Made by a program: the position numbers and the translations under genes
The notes under the pieces: generated by a model
What the model saw: the letters and a program-made list of their open reading frames with translations, nothing else
Told to the model about the DNA's origin: nothing
The model's database searches: none
In this document: positions 2,729 through 37,725 of the stretch, piece by piece
How positions within the stretch are numbered: position 1 is the first letter of the stretch
How the letters are laid out: every line of letters begins with the position of its first letter
DNA from: Streptomyces canus
GTDB lineage: Bacteria; Actinomycetota; Actinomycetes; Streptomycetales; Streptomycetaceae
Length of the DNA stretch: 64,000 nt
Direction: 5' to 3'
NCBI RefSeq assembly: GCF_030816965.1
Contig: NZ_JAUSYQ010000002.1
Coordinates: forward strand, 7,802,001-7,866,000

Positions 2729-3235
2729 TCACTCCGGCAGGGGACCCGCGATGGGCTCCACCCGCGGCTTCGCCAGCCGCTCGTAGTCGGCCCCCGGCAG
2801 ACACAGCGACCGGTCGAGCCGGGCGGCGTTGAAGTACAGCCGGGGTTGGGCCACGACGTCCGGATCGGCGACGACCTCCAGGTCGGGGTCGAAGCTGAAC
2901 GGCAGCACCGTGCCGGGGATCGCGCGGGCCAGCCGCTCGGCGGTCTCCGCATCGCTGAACCCGACATAGCGCGCGGCGTACAGCGCCCGGATCGCGTCAA
3001 GGTCCACGCGCCGGTCCCCGGGGACGACCGCCAGGACGTTCCGGGTGGTCCGGCGGTCCACCTTGACCCGCAGGACGATGCACTTCGCGGCCTCGGAGGC
3101 GGGGTGTCCACGCAGCGCGCACACGGCGTCGGTGGTGCCCTCGGGCGCGTGGTCGATCAGCTTGTAGTCGACGGAGGAGGCGTCGAGCAGGGAGATCAGA
3201 CGGTCGTAGGTGTCGTAGGCGTCGTCGCCGGGCAT
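2729..3235 (-). CDS. YbaK/EbsC-type aminoacyl-tRNA deacylase-like protein
   Basis: This is a 168-residue single-domain protein of the YbaK/ProX fold. It has the KCIVLRV strand carrying the usual lysine, a VVPGDRRVD segment, and a C-terminal YFNAARLDRSL block. The family hydrolyses mischarged tRNAs such as Cys- or Ala-tRNAPro. The exact substrate cannot be told from sequence. The start lies inside the 3' end of the upstream EamA gene (40-bp overlap), so the two are probably co-transcribed. The 3' end is convergent with the exonuclease, 7 bp away. Confidence 0.82.
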   Translation of the reverse strand: MPGDDAYDTYDRLISLLDASSVDYKLIDHAPEGTTDAVCALRGHPASEAAKCIVLRVKVDRRTTRNVLAVVPGDRRVDLDAIRALYAARYVGFSDAETAERLARAIPGTVLPFSFDPDLEVVADPDVVAQPRLYFNAARLDRSLCLPGADYERLAKPRVEPIAGPLPE

Positions 3236-4161
3236 CGGGTGTCCTCTTCGATGGGGTGAACTGCGGTGCGGGGCGGAGTCGTTGCGCGGTGGGCGCGTTC
3301 CACGGACTGCCCCCAGTAGGTGCCGGTGACCATCATGACCGCCCCGAACCCGGTCAGCACGGTGAAGTGCTCACCGCCCAGGGCGACCCCCACCGCGGCG
3401 GCCCAGATCGGCTCGGTGCCGAGCAGCAGGCTCGCCCGGCTGGCCGAGGTGCGCTGCACCGCCCAGGTCTGGGCGAGGAAGGCGAACACACTGCAGAACA
3501 GGGCGAGATACAGCAGCTGTGCCCAGACGGCCGGGCCGGCGTGGGCCAGTGTCGGAAGCTCGCGTGCGGCCGGGGCGAGGAACAGGGCCGTGCCGACGAG
3601 GGTCTGCACGGTCGTGAGGTGCAGCGGCCGTATCGCCCGCCCCGCGGTGAGCCGGCCGACCAGCGCCACATGGCCGGCCCGTACGACCGCGGCGGCGAGC
3701 ATCAGCAGGTCACCGAGGCGGGGCGTGTGGAAGCCGTTGCCCGCCATCAGGAGCCCGACGGCCAGGACGCACACACCGGCGGCGGCGTAGAAGACGGGCG
3801 GCAGACCGCCCCGCTGACCGGTGCGGTCCAGGAGGGGGGTGAGGACGATGGTCAGGCTGATGATGAGCCCGGCGTTGGCGGCACTGGTGTGGGCGACGCC
3901 GTAGGTCTCGACGACGAGGACGGCGGCCTGGGTGAGGCCCAGGGGCACACCCGCCCGCAGCTCCTCGCGGGTCCACCGGCGCGGCCCTCGCCCGGGGGCG
4001 GCGACGACTCCCAGGCAGGCGAGCGCGGACAGGGCGTACCGGGCGAAGAGCACCAGCAGGACAGGGAGAGCGGACGTCGCTGTCTGGGCGGAGAGATAAC
4101 TCGAACCCCAGACGATCGCGACCAGCAGGAGTACCGCGTCGGTACGGCGGGCGTCGGACAC
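3196..4161 (-). CDS. EamA/DMT-family exporter
   Basis: The protein has about 321 residues and two repeats of roughly five hydrophobic helices. The first begins AVLLLVAIVWGSSYLSA, a typical EamA opening; the second repeat ends in VMMVTGTYWGQS. The family exports amino acids and other small metabolites. GTG 4161 gives the family-like N-terminus MSDARRTD. A GTG at 4203 would add 14 residues and abut the divergent regulator. Divergence from a LysR gene only about 80 bp away suggests that the LysR protein controls it. The substrate is unknown. Confidence 0.85.
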   Translation of the reverse strand: MSDARRTDAVLLLVAIVWGSSYLSAQTATSALPVLLVLFARYALSALACLGVVAAPGRGPRRWTREELRAGVPLGLTQAAVLVVETYGVAHTSAANAGLIISLTIVLTPLLDRTGQRGGLPPVFYAAAGVCVLAVGLLMAGNGFHTPRLGDLLMLAAAVVRAGHVALVGRLTAGRAIRPLHLTTVQTLVGTALFLAPAARELPTLAHAGPAVWAQLLYLALFCSVFAFLAQTWAVQRTSASRASLLLGTEPIWAAAVGVALGGEHFTVLTGFGAVMMVTGTYWGQSVERAHRATTPPRTAVHPIEEDTRCPATTPTTPTTV

Positions 4162-33827: not shown

Positions 33828-34769
33828 ATGGACGCTCTGGCAGGCCTGCTGGAAGGACCGCGGGCGCGTGGCGCCTTCATGATCCGTGCGTGTTTCGACC
33901 CGCCGTGGGCGGTGCGGGTGGAGGACCGGGCGCCGCTGACGGTCATGCTGATGGTCCGTGGCGACGCCTGGATCGTGCCCGACTCGGGCGAGCGGATCCG
34001 GCTGCGCCCCGGCGACCTCGCCATCGCCCGCGGCCCCGACCCCTACACCTGCGCCGACGACCCCGATACGGCCCCGCAGGCACTGATCCTGCCCGGCGCG
34101 GAGTGCCGCTACCCCGACGGACGGGCCCTGAACGGCTCCATGGACCTCGGGGTGCGCACCTGGGGCGACCGGCTCGACGGCGAGACGGTGATCCTCATCG
34201 GGACGTATCTGATGGAGGGCGAGATCAGCAACCGGCTCCTGGACGCACTGCCGCCGCTGCTGTCGCTCACCACCGACGTGTGGGAGTGCCCGCTGACCCC
34301 GCTCCTCATGGAGGAGATCGTGCGCGGCGGGCCGGGGCAGGAGGTCGTCCTGGACCGGATGCTGGACCTGCTGGTCATCGCGGCGCTCCGGGCCTGGTTC
34401 TCCCGGCCCGAGGCGGAGGCGCCCGCCTGGTACGCGGCGCTGGCTGATCCCGTCGTGGGGCGGGTGCTGCGGCTGGTGCAGGACGACCCCGCGCATCCTT
34501 GGACGGTGGCGTCCCTGGCGGCCAAGGCCGGCGTCTCGCGTGCCGCGCTCGCCCGGCGGTTCAGTGAGCTGGTGGGGGAGCCGGTGATGACGTATCTGAC
34601 CGGATGGCGGCTGGCGTTGGCGGCGGATCTGCTGCGGGGGAGCCCTTCGACGCTCGAGGCGATCGCCCGACAGGTGGGGTACGGAAGTGCCTTCGCGCTG
34701 TCCAGTGCGTTCAAGAGGGGATACGGGGTCAGCCCGCAGGAGTTTCGGGTGCGGGCCGGCGGGGGCTGA
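33828..34769 (+). CDS. AraC-family regulator with cupin sensor
   Basis: 313 residues. The N-terminal cupin-type domain (WIVPDSGERIRLRPGDLAIARG) probably binds a small ligand. The C-terminal pair of HTH motifs (TVASLAAKAGVSRAALARRF and LEAIARQVGYGSAFALSSAF) binds DNA. TACGCT at 33816-33821 places a leaderless start on ATG 33828. It is divergent from the NmrA-like gene, its likely target. The frame is open far upstream but only as a shadow. Confidence 0.9.
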   Translation: MDALAGLLEGPRARGAFMIRACFDPPWAVRVEDRAPLTVMLMVRGDAWIVPDSGERIRLRPGDLAIARGPDPYTCADDPDTAPQALILPGAECRYPDGRALNGSMDLGVRTWGDRLDGETVILIGTYLMEGEISNRLLDALPPLLSLTTDVWECPLTPLLMEEIVRGGPGQEVVLDRMLDLLVIAALRAWFSRPEAEAPAWYAALADPVVGRVLRLVQDDPAHPWTVASLAAKAGVSRAALARRFSELVGEPVMTYLTGWRLALAADLLRGSPSTLEAIARQVGYGSAFALSSAFKRGYGVSPQEFRVRAGGG

Positions 34770-34789
34770 TCGTAGCGTCTCTAATGAGC

Positions 34790-36913
34790 CTAGGTTTTCC
34801 TGGGTGGGGCTGGGTTTTCGGCCCTGTTGGAAAATGCTCTCGGTGGCCCGTGCCGTGACCCTGCCGCCCGTGGTCGGGTGGTGGGGGTGGCATGGGCGTG
34901 CAGGTGGAAGCCTGCGCCGAGGTGGGCCCCGCGTGGCCGGCGCGGCCCGCGGGGTGGGCTCATCGTGTGCGGTGCCTGCCGCCCTGGACGCCGCCGGCTG
35001 CGGCGCGGGGGTGACGAGGGCAGTCGCCCCGCCGGACGCTTTCCACCCGGCCCGCCCGCCGCAGACACGGCAGGCGGGGGTGTGGGTGGGGCGGGGGCCC
35101 CGCGTCGCCTGTTGGGCGCGGGGCGTCTTGTCGTGGGCCCGCTCTTCGTGCGGTCCGCAGCGCTGGGCCGCGGACCGGGCGGAGTGGGGGCCGGGTGGGG
35201 GTGATGCCGGACCGGTTGGTCCAGCTCCGCAACCGTGCGCCGTAGCCGGTAGCTGCCGTCGTCCCGGTTGAGGACAGTGAGGTGTTGGTGTTGCAGGCCT
35301 CGGGCGCCGATGCGTTGCCAGGCGGCCACGTCGCGGTCCGCGCTGTAGGCGCAGGACGTGTTCGGGCAGGTGGCCCATTTCCAGCCCGGCGCCGGGTTGT
35401 CCGGGGCGGCGTGGTGGCGCAACGGGGTCAGGCAGCGCGGGCAGTACTTCGAGGTCCCCCGTGCCGGGACGATGACCACCGCGATGCCGTAACGGGCCGC
35501 ATGGTGGACGGTATCGGCCACGATCTGCCCGCGCACGCTGCTGGACAGGCGGGTGTTGAGGGTGCGCCCCTTGCCACGGGCCTCCATGTCGCGGAGGTCT
35601 TCCAGGTAGATCACCGTGGCCTCGGCGGCGCGGGCGTGCTCGACCATGAACCGGGCCGCCGCTTTGGCGATGGCCCCGTTCAGGCGCTCGCGGCGCCGGC
35701 TGACGCGCCGGTGCTCCTCGCGCAACACCGTCAGCTTGGCCACCATCAGCGGGTCGGGGTGCACTCCACGGGCCAAACTCCCCTGGAGCAGGCGCTCGAG
35801 GTGGGCGGCCTTGGTCCACAGCTGTTCGGCCTGGACGCGCAGTCGGTCGGCCTTGGCCAGGATCCCGTCGATGCGCAGGAAGACCGGACGGGCATCGGTG
35901 ATCACGCCGGGCTGCTCACCGTCGCCAAGGGTGAGGGTGCCGCCGGTGAGCAGGGTGTTCAGCCCGTAGTCGAAGGCGACGGCCCGGGTATGGCCCGCCC
36001 GCCGGGTCTTGACTACCGCCGTGCTGTGGGCGACATCCAGCCGCACCCGGCCGTTCCGGACGCGCAGGGTCGGGGCGTGCAGGGCCGCGGTGGCGGCGAT
36101 GGTCGGCGGCAGCCGGAAACGCATCACCACCTCATGCCAGTCCGCCCGCGAGCGCGGGTCGGGACGCACCGGCAGGCGCACCGTGAGCACCGCGAAGTGC
36201 GCCGGATCCTCCCCGCAGCGCTGAAGAGTGCACAGCTGCTTGTCGGCGGCGGCCAAGACCATCTGACGGCCCGCACCCGGAGGTGCTTCCAGCTCACACA
36301 CATCGGCCGGCATCCGCCGGTGGGCGGCCGCGAAGTCCATGACCTGGCGGGTGCGGGCGCGCAGGACCGAGGAGGCGATGCCCGCCCCGTCCGGGCACGC
36401 CGCGCGCAGCGCATCCCACTGCTCGGGGGTGCGGCGCATCGGGTCCGGACTCGCCGCCGGCCAGGAGGTGAGGACCCCCTGGACCACCTCGGCGCGCCAG
36501 TGCGCCGCGCGCAGCACCCGTCCGGCCTGCTCCTCGGCGATCCTGCGCACCCGGTCCGATACGTACACGCCCTCAGGAGGCGTGGCGGCCCAGCACAGGG
36601 TACGCAACGCCATCCACGCGTTCGAGGGCAGCTTCTCCCCCGACAGTGCCCTGCGCGAGGCCAGCAGGTCCAGATCGGACCGGTTCCAGTGCTCGGCGAT
36701 CACCGAGGCCGCCATGCCCTCGACCAGGGAGGTCAGCCAGCTCACCCGCTCGGCCAGCTCCCCGGCGCCCAGGACTTCACCACTGGCGGTGTCCAGGCCA
36801 CGGAACGCGAAGGCGGAAGCGCACGCCACCCGTACCGTCTCCCCGTCCCCCACCGCGACCTTCCGCCGCACCCCGCACCCACCCCCACTCCCGTGCCTCA
36901 GACCCACGACCAA
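34790..36913 (-). CDS. Large TnpB/Cas12-like RuvC nuclease
   Basis: 707 residues if started at TTG 36913; GTG 36907, 36871 or 36853 are alternatives. Residues 1-310 resemble no domain I know. The RuvC core is split: VAFDYGLNTLL (D315), VIYLEDLRDMEARGKG (E438) and SADRDVAAWQRIG (D526/D528). A zinc ribbon (C491, C494, C516, C521) sits between the last two. This order and the YLEDL, CPRC and DRDVAA motifs match the C-terminal half of TnpB and Cas12 nucleases, and all acidic residues are kept. The last 140 residues are Pro/Arg-rich and low complexity. An RNA-guided DNA nuclease is the likely activity, by inference. It is much longer than TnpB (about 400). Confidence 0.75.
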   Translation of the reverse strand: MVVGLRHGSGGGCGVRRKVAVGDGETVRVACASAFAFRGLDTASGEVLGAGELAERVSWLTSLVEGMAASVIAEHWNRSDLDLLASRRALSGEKLPSNAWMALRTLCWAATPPEGVYVSDRVRRIAEEQAGRVLRAAHWRAEVVQGVLTSWPAASPDPMRRTPEQWDALRAACPDGAGIASSVLRARTRQVMDFAAAHRRMPADVCELEAPPGAGRQMVLAAADKQLCTLQRCGEDPAHFAVLTVRLPVRPDPRSRADWHEVVMRFRLPPTIAATAALHAPTLRVRNGRVRLDVAHSTAVVKTRRAGHTRAVAFDYGLNTLLTGGTLTLGDGEQPGVITDARPVFLRIDGILAKADRLRVQAEQLWTKAAHLERLLQGSLARGVHPDPLMVAKLTVLREEHRRVSRRRERLNGAIAKAAARFMVEHARAAEATVIYLEDLRDMEARGKGRTLNTRLSSSVRGQIVADTVHHAARYGIAVVIVPARGTSKYCPRCLTPLRHHAAPDNPAPGWKWATCPNTSCAYSADRDVAAWQRIGARGLQHQHLTVLNRDDGSYRLRRTVAELDQPVRHHPHPAPTPPGPRPSAADRTKSGPTTRRPAPNRRRGAPAPPTPPPAVSAAGGPGGKRPAGRLPSSPPRRSRRRPGRQAPHTMSPPRGPRRPRGAHLGAGFHLHAHATPTTRPRAAGSRHGPPRAFSNRAENPAPPRKT
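34793..34806 (+). repeat. Left terminal inverted repeat
   Basis: GGTTTTCCTGGGTG begins three bases beyond the start of the nuclease gene's TAG stop (34790-34792). It is a perfect 14-bp match to the right repeat in inverse orientation. The nuclease frame therefore ends exactly at the repeat. Confidence 0.75.
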
Positions 36914-36915
36914 CC

Positions 36916-36930
36916 GTCCGACAATCGGAC
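36916..36930. promoter_or_regulatory. Palindrome upstream of the nuclease gene
   Basis: GTCCGA-CAA-TCGGAC is a perfect 6-bp inverted repeat just before the start codon of the RuvC nuclease gene. It could be an operator or a 5' hairpin. On the minus strand TTGTCC and TATGTC about 16 bases apart lie just upstream and may be the promoter. Confidence 0.4.
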
Positions 36931-37010
36931 TGACATACCCAACGACGCCATCCGGACAACGTCACGCCCACCGCCCAACCCCACGCAACGAAACAGAACG
37001 ATCACAGGAA

Positions 37011-37024
37011 CACCCAGGAAAACC
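37011..37024 (-). repeat. Right terminal inverted repeat
   Basis: CACCCAGGAAAACC is the inverse of the left repeat. It lies 98 bp upstream of the nuclease start and 35 bp before the next plus-strand gene. Confidence 0.75.
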
Positions 37025-37059
37025 AGACCAATTGACGCACTGTACGAGACCCTGGGGAT

Positions 37060-37725
37060 GTGTACACGGAACGGGCGTCCCGGCTTGCCGGTGCCGTCAT
37101 CTGGACCGGTGACGGGGCCGGACGTGTGCTGCCCGACGGGTGCATGGATCTGCTCTGGAACGAAGGGCGACTGCTCGTCGCCGGGCCCGACACGCGAGCG
37201 TACGTCACCGGCGGCGCCCCGAGCACCTGGGCGGGCGTGCGCTTCTACCCGGGGACCGCGCCCGCCTTCCTGGGCGTGCCCGCCCATGAACTGCGGGACC
37301 GCCGCGTCGAGTTGGCCGATCTCTGGCCGGCTCCAGAGGTACGGAGGCTGCGGGGCCGTATCGAGAAGGCCCCCGACCCCGCCACGGCACTCGAAGAGAT
37401 CGCCCTGGAGCGTGCCGCCCCTCCCGACCCCGTCCTGCACGCCCTCGTGACCGCCCTCGACGCGGGCCGCCCCGTCGCCGCGACGGCCGACGAACTCGGC
37501 TTGGGCGCACGGCAGTTGCACCGGAGGTCGCTCGCGGCCTTCGGATACGGGCCCAAGACGCTGGCCCGGATTCTGCGGCTGCGGCGGGCTCTCGTGCTGG
37601 CCGGGGCCGGGGTGCCGTTCGCGGAGACGGCGGTGCGGAGCGGGTTCGCGGACCAGGCCCATCTCGCGCGGGACGTGAAGGAGTTGGCGGGCGTGCCGCT
37701 CGGGCGGCTACTGGCCGTCGGCTAG
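37060..37725 (+). CDS. AraC-like HTH regulator (DUF6597-type N-terminus)
   Basis: 221 residues. The N-terminal half has [25 protein letters not shown], typical of the DUF6597/HTH_18 regulators. The C-terminal half has [21 protein letters not shown] and [21 protein letters not shown], an AraC DNA-binding pair. The GTG start lies 35 bp from the right end of the nuclease element, so its original promoter may have been displaced. It ends overlapping the convergent VOC gene by 18 bp. Confidence 0.82.

Follow-up and report, generated by a model that had tools for sequence, protein, structure and literature searches.

We focus here on an insertion element in a 64-kb stretch of Streptomyces canus DNA (the window), which lies on the reverse strand between a right end at 34776 and a left end at 37050 (2275 bp, each end placed to within one base) and carries tnpB as the sole gene between its ends. 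We put at about 85% the probability that it derives from an actinobacterial insertion sequence of the IS607 family, has kept tnpB alone, is moved in trans and is retained by its guided TnpB. The ends are marked by empty sites in relatives, insertion has occurred at AGG|CT without duplication, tnpA is absent, and the protein has the fold of a TnpB nuclease. The element is real, well defined and of a known kind with a few unusual details, and the puzzle of its inverted ends, its length and its lost transposase is largely resolved; a leader common to tnpB-only copies and small satellites that carry only the candidate guide RNA are the points deserving a second look. Features below are on the reverse strand unless marked (+).

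Element ends, target and nuclease

The ends come from empty sites in relatives and from an alignment of the left and right ends of copies. Eleven of the 29 loci in related genomes that match one flank also carry the other flank without the element. In nine relatives read at the joint (L026 and L027 hold both flanks and were left out of this reading), the empty site reads GTAGCCTGG in two relatives, differs from this by one base in six and is unclear in L019; these readings put the window joints at 34776 and 37050 (GTAG|34776 and 37050|CCTGG). The same comparison was made for a second insertion, L012, in 5 of its 11 relatives, with the empty joint CGCCCAG-GCTGTCG in three and one base off in two, against filled joints of CGCCCAGG|GTCTCG and GAGACG|CTGTCG. 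Both targets are CAGG|CT, and the empty-site comparison reveals no target duplication. To the left of the element stands AGG (37051..37053); among the 13 copies with a visible left joint (the window, L001-L007, L012 and L060-L063), 11 have AGG, and L001 and L003 have GGG. On the right, a recognisable end is present in 13 of the 14 loci found by protein search, L013 lacking it, and a conserved segment beyond the position of the right repeat leads to GACG and then CT in all 13 (L001-L012 and L014). The count for the fixed CT (34774..34775 in the window, and present in empty targets) is restricted to these protein-found copies because the other right-end pattern searches had CT inside the pattern.

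The tnpB gene is one long open reading frame (ORF) between two inverted repeats considered below, and it reads through the right repeat to a stop codon immediately beyond it. When relatives are aligned, the start falls at GTG 36871 and not at TTG 36913, which gives 693 codons plus the stop (34790..36871). An original prediction, made from the DNA alone, of a protein of roughly 700 residues was right as to the long ORF, with the start now corrected and residues 539-693 modelled at a predicted local distance difference test score (pLDDT) below 50; these residues overlap the conserved RNA structure discussed below. Codons 1-531 (35279..36871) make up a predicted TnpB/Cas12f-like folded part with WED/REC, RuvC and zinc-ribbon domains, named by analogy to TnpB structures, and the model resembles ISDra2 TnpB over residues 12-531. 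An N-terminal region of unknown fold, as first described, was rejected, as structural alignment of the model places the N-terminal half in the TnpB fold. The single RuvC/zinc-ribbon gene is confirmed: the protein matches PF07282 at 34.6 bits (cut-off 26.3), and Asp301 (RuvC-I, 35969..35971), Glu424 (RuvC-II, 35600..35602) and Asp514 (RuvC-III, 35330..35332), previously numbered D315, E438 and D528, are invariant catalytic columns in 44 aligned sequences, together with Cys477, 480, 502 and 507. The closest solved fold neighbours are Cas12f; against solved structures, a single-protein phmmer search gave a weak Cas12f match (E 0.12) and an alignment-based search did better (best E 4.9e-07). Profile search and structure prediction, both recommended in the original prediction along with the comparison of empty and filled sites, support a C-terminal RuvC/TnpB fold. 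As judged by sequence, the active site is intact and the family is under purifying selection, which is also seen in pairs of tnpA-less copies.

Copies with and without a transposase

In the window element a leader of about 180 bp is all that separates the left end from tnpB, and the absence of a transposase gene, as predicted, is borne out. In L001, L002, L004 and L006, ends of this type enclose tnpB and, between it and the left end, about 800 bp coding for a serine recombinase; PF00239 is matched in L001 and L004, and NF033518 (transpos_IS607, cut-off 110) scores 117.1 bits in L004 and 109.7 bits in L001. Used as a tblastn query, the L004 transposase has close homologues in 4 of the 27 loci searched; several of these 27 loci stop short of the left end. 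As tnpA, the gene for a MerR-HTH/serine-recombinase transposase that a full member encodes, is absent, the window element is classed as an IS607 derivative and not as a full member. Its own genome holds one copy of the element, and the window tnpB is the only one of its family there; an IS607-type serine transposase gene lies elsewhere in that genome (L064:3177-3776, C2:5350712-5351239). In another genome (G571), close transposases were found on contigs 38 and 40. Right ends lie on contig 40 as well and on contig 10, where no close transposase was found.

The leader and a 15-bp palindrome within it, GTCCGAT-NN-TCGGAC (GTCCGATNNTCGGAC), are common to eight tnpA-less close copies (the window, L003, L005, L007, L012, L014, L061 and L062), and the four tnpA-bearing copies named above lack the palindrome. 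In the window it reads GTCCGATTGTCGGAC at 36916..36930, with one match against 0.00 expected, and is a candidate operator or promoter part. In a tree of 16 TnpBs, with L002 kept in a single frame beyond a small deletion, the presence or absence of tnpA changes three times, and as few changes are obtained in 127 of 500 shuffles. Some relatives are eroded: L014 keeps tnpB, leader and right end and has lost its left end, the sequence upstream of about 2950 being unrelated, and L013, L059 and L067 are decayed or partial relatives in which only tnpB pieces match.

Elements with tnpB alone are already known and possibly derive from IS607 or IS200/IS605, according to passages of PMC3627910 and PMC9956272. 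In these IS1341-type elements, as in the window, tnpB is the sole gene between the ends; the window element differs in having a recognisable parent family, of IS607 type, and in the leader palindrome that tnpB-only copies have in common.

Could the protein instead be domesticated or regulatory, an RNA-guided protein with a host function or a TldR-like repressor, and not a transposon nuclease? Domestication was one option in the original prediction, and we regard it as quite unlikely. It would fit the single copy in its own genome, the leader and palindrome peculiar to tnpA-less copies, and the purifying selection in pairs of such copies. TldR, however, is nuclease-dead, in contrast to the invariant catalytic triad found here, and the site is empty in relatives, with other copies of the family at varied sites.

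Right-end RNA and subterminal repeats

A conserved structured RNA, recognised by covariation in aligned sequences, overlaps both the right end and the 3′-terminal part of tnpB. The candidate right-end element RNA (reRNA, or omegaRNA) scaffold extends over 34776..35095, its 5′ limit being approximate, and takes in the final ~100 tnpB codons. When 24 right-end stretches, 21 of them distinct, are aligned (L013, without a right end, L065, without tnpB, and the internally deleted L067 were left out), the alignment folds with covarying helices (RNAalifold, 30 pairs). The count covers 22 of these 30 pairs, 8 short-range pairs having been dropped beforehand, in a structure that itself came from this alignment. 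Paired cells make up 96.5% (87.4 in shuffles). Double-sided changes affect 30 cells (7.0 in shuffles, with 0 of 500 reaching 30) and are present in 7 pairs (4.9 in shuffles, with 29 of 500 reaching 7); slid structures yield 5 changed cells at the most. The window strand alone also folds better than its shuffles (z -2.62, 2 of 200 as good). The strongest helix is long-range and joins GATGAGC inside tnpB (34958..34964) to GCTCATT at the right-end tip just past the stop codon (34783..34789), and a distant clade has GATCAGC opposite GCTGATC. The synonymous rate (dS) drops at codons 600-665, except in the L009/L010 pair, where it is not below both body parts. Rfam gave no match in the window between 34300 and 37600 at E up to 1, RAGATH-18 included, and none at the gathering threshold in L004, L006, L008 and L060.

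By analogy to other systems, this RNA is probably the guide RNA of TnpB. For the IS607 TnpB of ISXfa1, part of PMC10711439 describes a fixed right-flanking base within the reRNA scaffold and a transposon-associated motif (TAM) of GGG; on this analogy the CT here is read as likely scaffold, AGG as the likely TAM and 34773 as the start of the guide, which is predicted to be flanking DNA (34754..34773, ACGATCAGCC...).

The original prediction of perfect 14-bp inverted repeats stands, with GGTTTTCCTGGGTG at 37011..37024 and its inverted copy at 34793..34806 (+), the latter within both the tnpB ORF and the candidate reRNA. At up to two mismatches these are the only two matches in the window, and 4 of 500 dinucleotide shuffles of 34701-37100 produce an inverted pair of 14-mers with a spacing above 1500 bp. 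As the ends of the element, however, the repeats did not survive: conservation among copies extends outward past them, by 17 bp on the right and 26 bp on the left, and they are subterminal. According to sections of PMC6188088, IS607-family elements have neither terminal repeats nor target duplications, and the subterminal repeats bound by IS1535 TnpA are located ~18-67 bp from the left end and about 10-28 bp from the right end, a zone with which the window positions agree. By this analogy we infer that the repeats are binding motifs for a serine transposase.

Two other roles for the repeats have to be weighed. They might pair with each other in the element transcript rather than bind protein, and the perfect complementarity in the window and in L005 and the place of the right copy inside the candidate reRNA would allow this; the arms, however, do not co-vary, since L001, L004, L061 and L062 carry one-arm changes unmatched on the opposite arm, and this improbable reading was rejected. 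Still less credible is that the repeats are the true ends for an unrelated DDE-type transposase with tnpB as a passenger. The perfect pair, rare in shuffles, and the want of tnpA in the window copy speak for it, whereas conservation continues past the repeats and breaks at the empty-site ends without target duplication, and relatives with the same ends encode a serine transposase; it was likewise rejected as contradicted by the empty sites. Of the passive mobilisation via the repeats that had been proposed, what is left is a serine transposase which, we infer, acts in trans.

Least likely of all is a CRISPR-type effector resembling Cas12f or Cas12n, for which the Cas12f fold neighbours and a PADLOC Cas12f model match of 38.5 bits could be cited: the guide RNA candidate is located in a transposon end, and the link was rejected as no array-like repeats (exact 16-mer direct repeats 45-95 bases apart) were found in a search confined to the 64-kb window.

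Proposed mechanism and wider setting

In the tnpB-only IS607 derivative that we favour, a serine transposase, supplied in trans when the cognate enzyme is present, would excise the element as a circle and insert it at AGG|CT. The right-end RNA would act as the guide RNA, with the flanking chromosome as its 3′ guide, and TnpB with its reRNA would recognise AGG followed by the former right flank, which adjoin only in the emptied site. As the guide would be flanking chromosome, TnpB would cut the empty site after excision, and repair from the sister chromosome copy would restore the element, which would thus stay in the genome though unable to move alone. This cut-and-repair step is taken from ISDra2, as part of PMC8612924 describes it.

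A number of observations weigh against this reading. First of all, the crossover dinucleotides lack a clean match: the target and the left joint have GG, the right joint CG or GC. Second, the only full IS607-type transposase of the genome is 31% identical to the cognate one, and no helper is therefore visible there; in Streptomyces AP-93 (G280), which has six right ends, no cognate transposase was found at E up to 0.001. Third, the tnpB-only copies, despite their common leader, do not form one clade in the TnpB tree, and the ends of L008-L011 showed no inverted repeats. Fourth, the covariation count carries the two limits given with it, and much of the covariation comes from two deep clades. 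Finally, the protein scores 38.5 bits with NCBIfam guided_TnpB, below the curated cut-off of 100 (a score threshold and not a biological feature), and the L014 end is in a different reading frame, which inflates the tail dN/dS (nonsynonymous to synonymous rate ratio) of its two pairs.

Two mini-elements in AP-93, of 427 bp (L060, reverse complement ~3055-3481) and 426 bp (L063, reverse complement ~3185-3610) and 93% alike, have the left end, the right end and the RNA region at CAGG|CT, with no match to tnpB and no tnpA. They recall the small non-autonomous IS200/IS605 elements, the palindrome-associated elements. A layered parasite system, in which TnpB is the keeper of ~427-bp guide-RNA-only satellites and of a tnpB-only lineage that is long-lived and has a controlled leader of its own, is a tentative idea that we think doubtful at present. 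If it is true, the satellites borrow transposase and TnpB in trans, and TnpB would cut the satellites' empty sites and so retain elements that encode no protein.

Compared with IS607-family members such as IS1535 and ISXfa1, the window element has in common the lack of terminal repeats and target duplication, the subterminal repeats, GG at the left joint, fixed right-flanking bases, a structured right-end RNA and, in some relatives, a serine transposase; it differs in the missing tnpA, the perfect 14-bp inverted subterminal pair, the longer TnpB ORF and a right-end RNA without an Rfam match. The last also separates it from ISFba1, whose IS607 TnpB uses a RAGATH-18 reRNA; TnpBs of that type have 330-433 residues according to part of PMC11061315, versus 531 folded residues here. 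ISDra2 TnpB is alike in its fold over residues 12-531, in the catalytic triad and in an reRNA, a candidate one in the window, that overlaps the 3′ end of tnpB (as part of PMC8612924 has it), and differs in belonging to an IS200/IS605 element with a Y1 transposase and in being 11-12% identical in structural alignments.

The pool of compact RNA-guided nucleases gains a group of actinobacterial IS607-type TnpBs, with a right-end RNA for which Rfam gave no match and a predicted AGG-type TAM that suits GC-rich DNA. Titles and abstract openings on TnpB and IS607 in Streptomyces and on Cas12n in Actinobacteria, within the one library searched, give no description of this group. Its transposase-bearing, tnpB-only and guide-RNA-only forms are clean natural material for work on whether TnpB can retain a non-autonomous element. 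In the window, the element is flanked on one side by a gene for a Cupin_6/HTH_18 (AraC-type) regulator and on the other by a DUF6597/HTH_18 gene.
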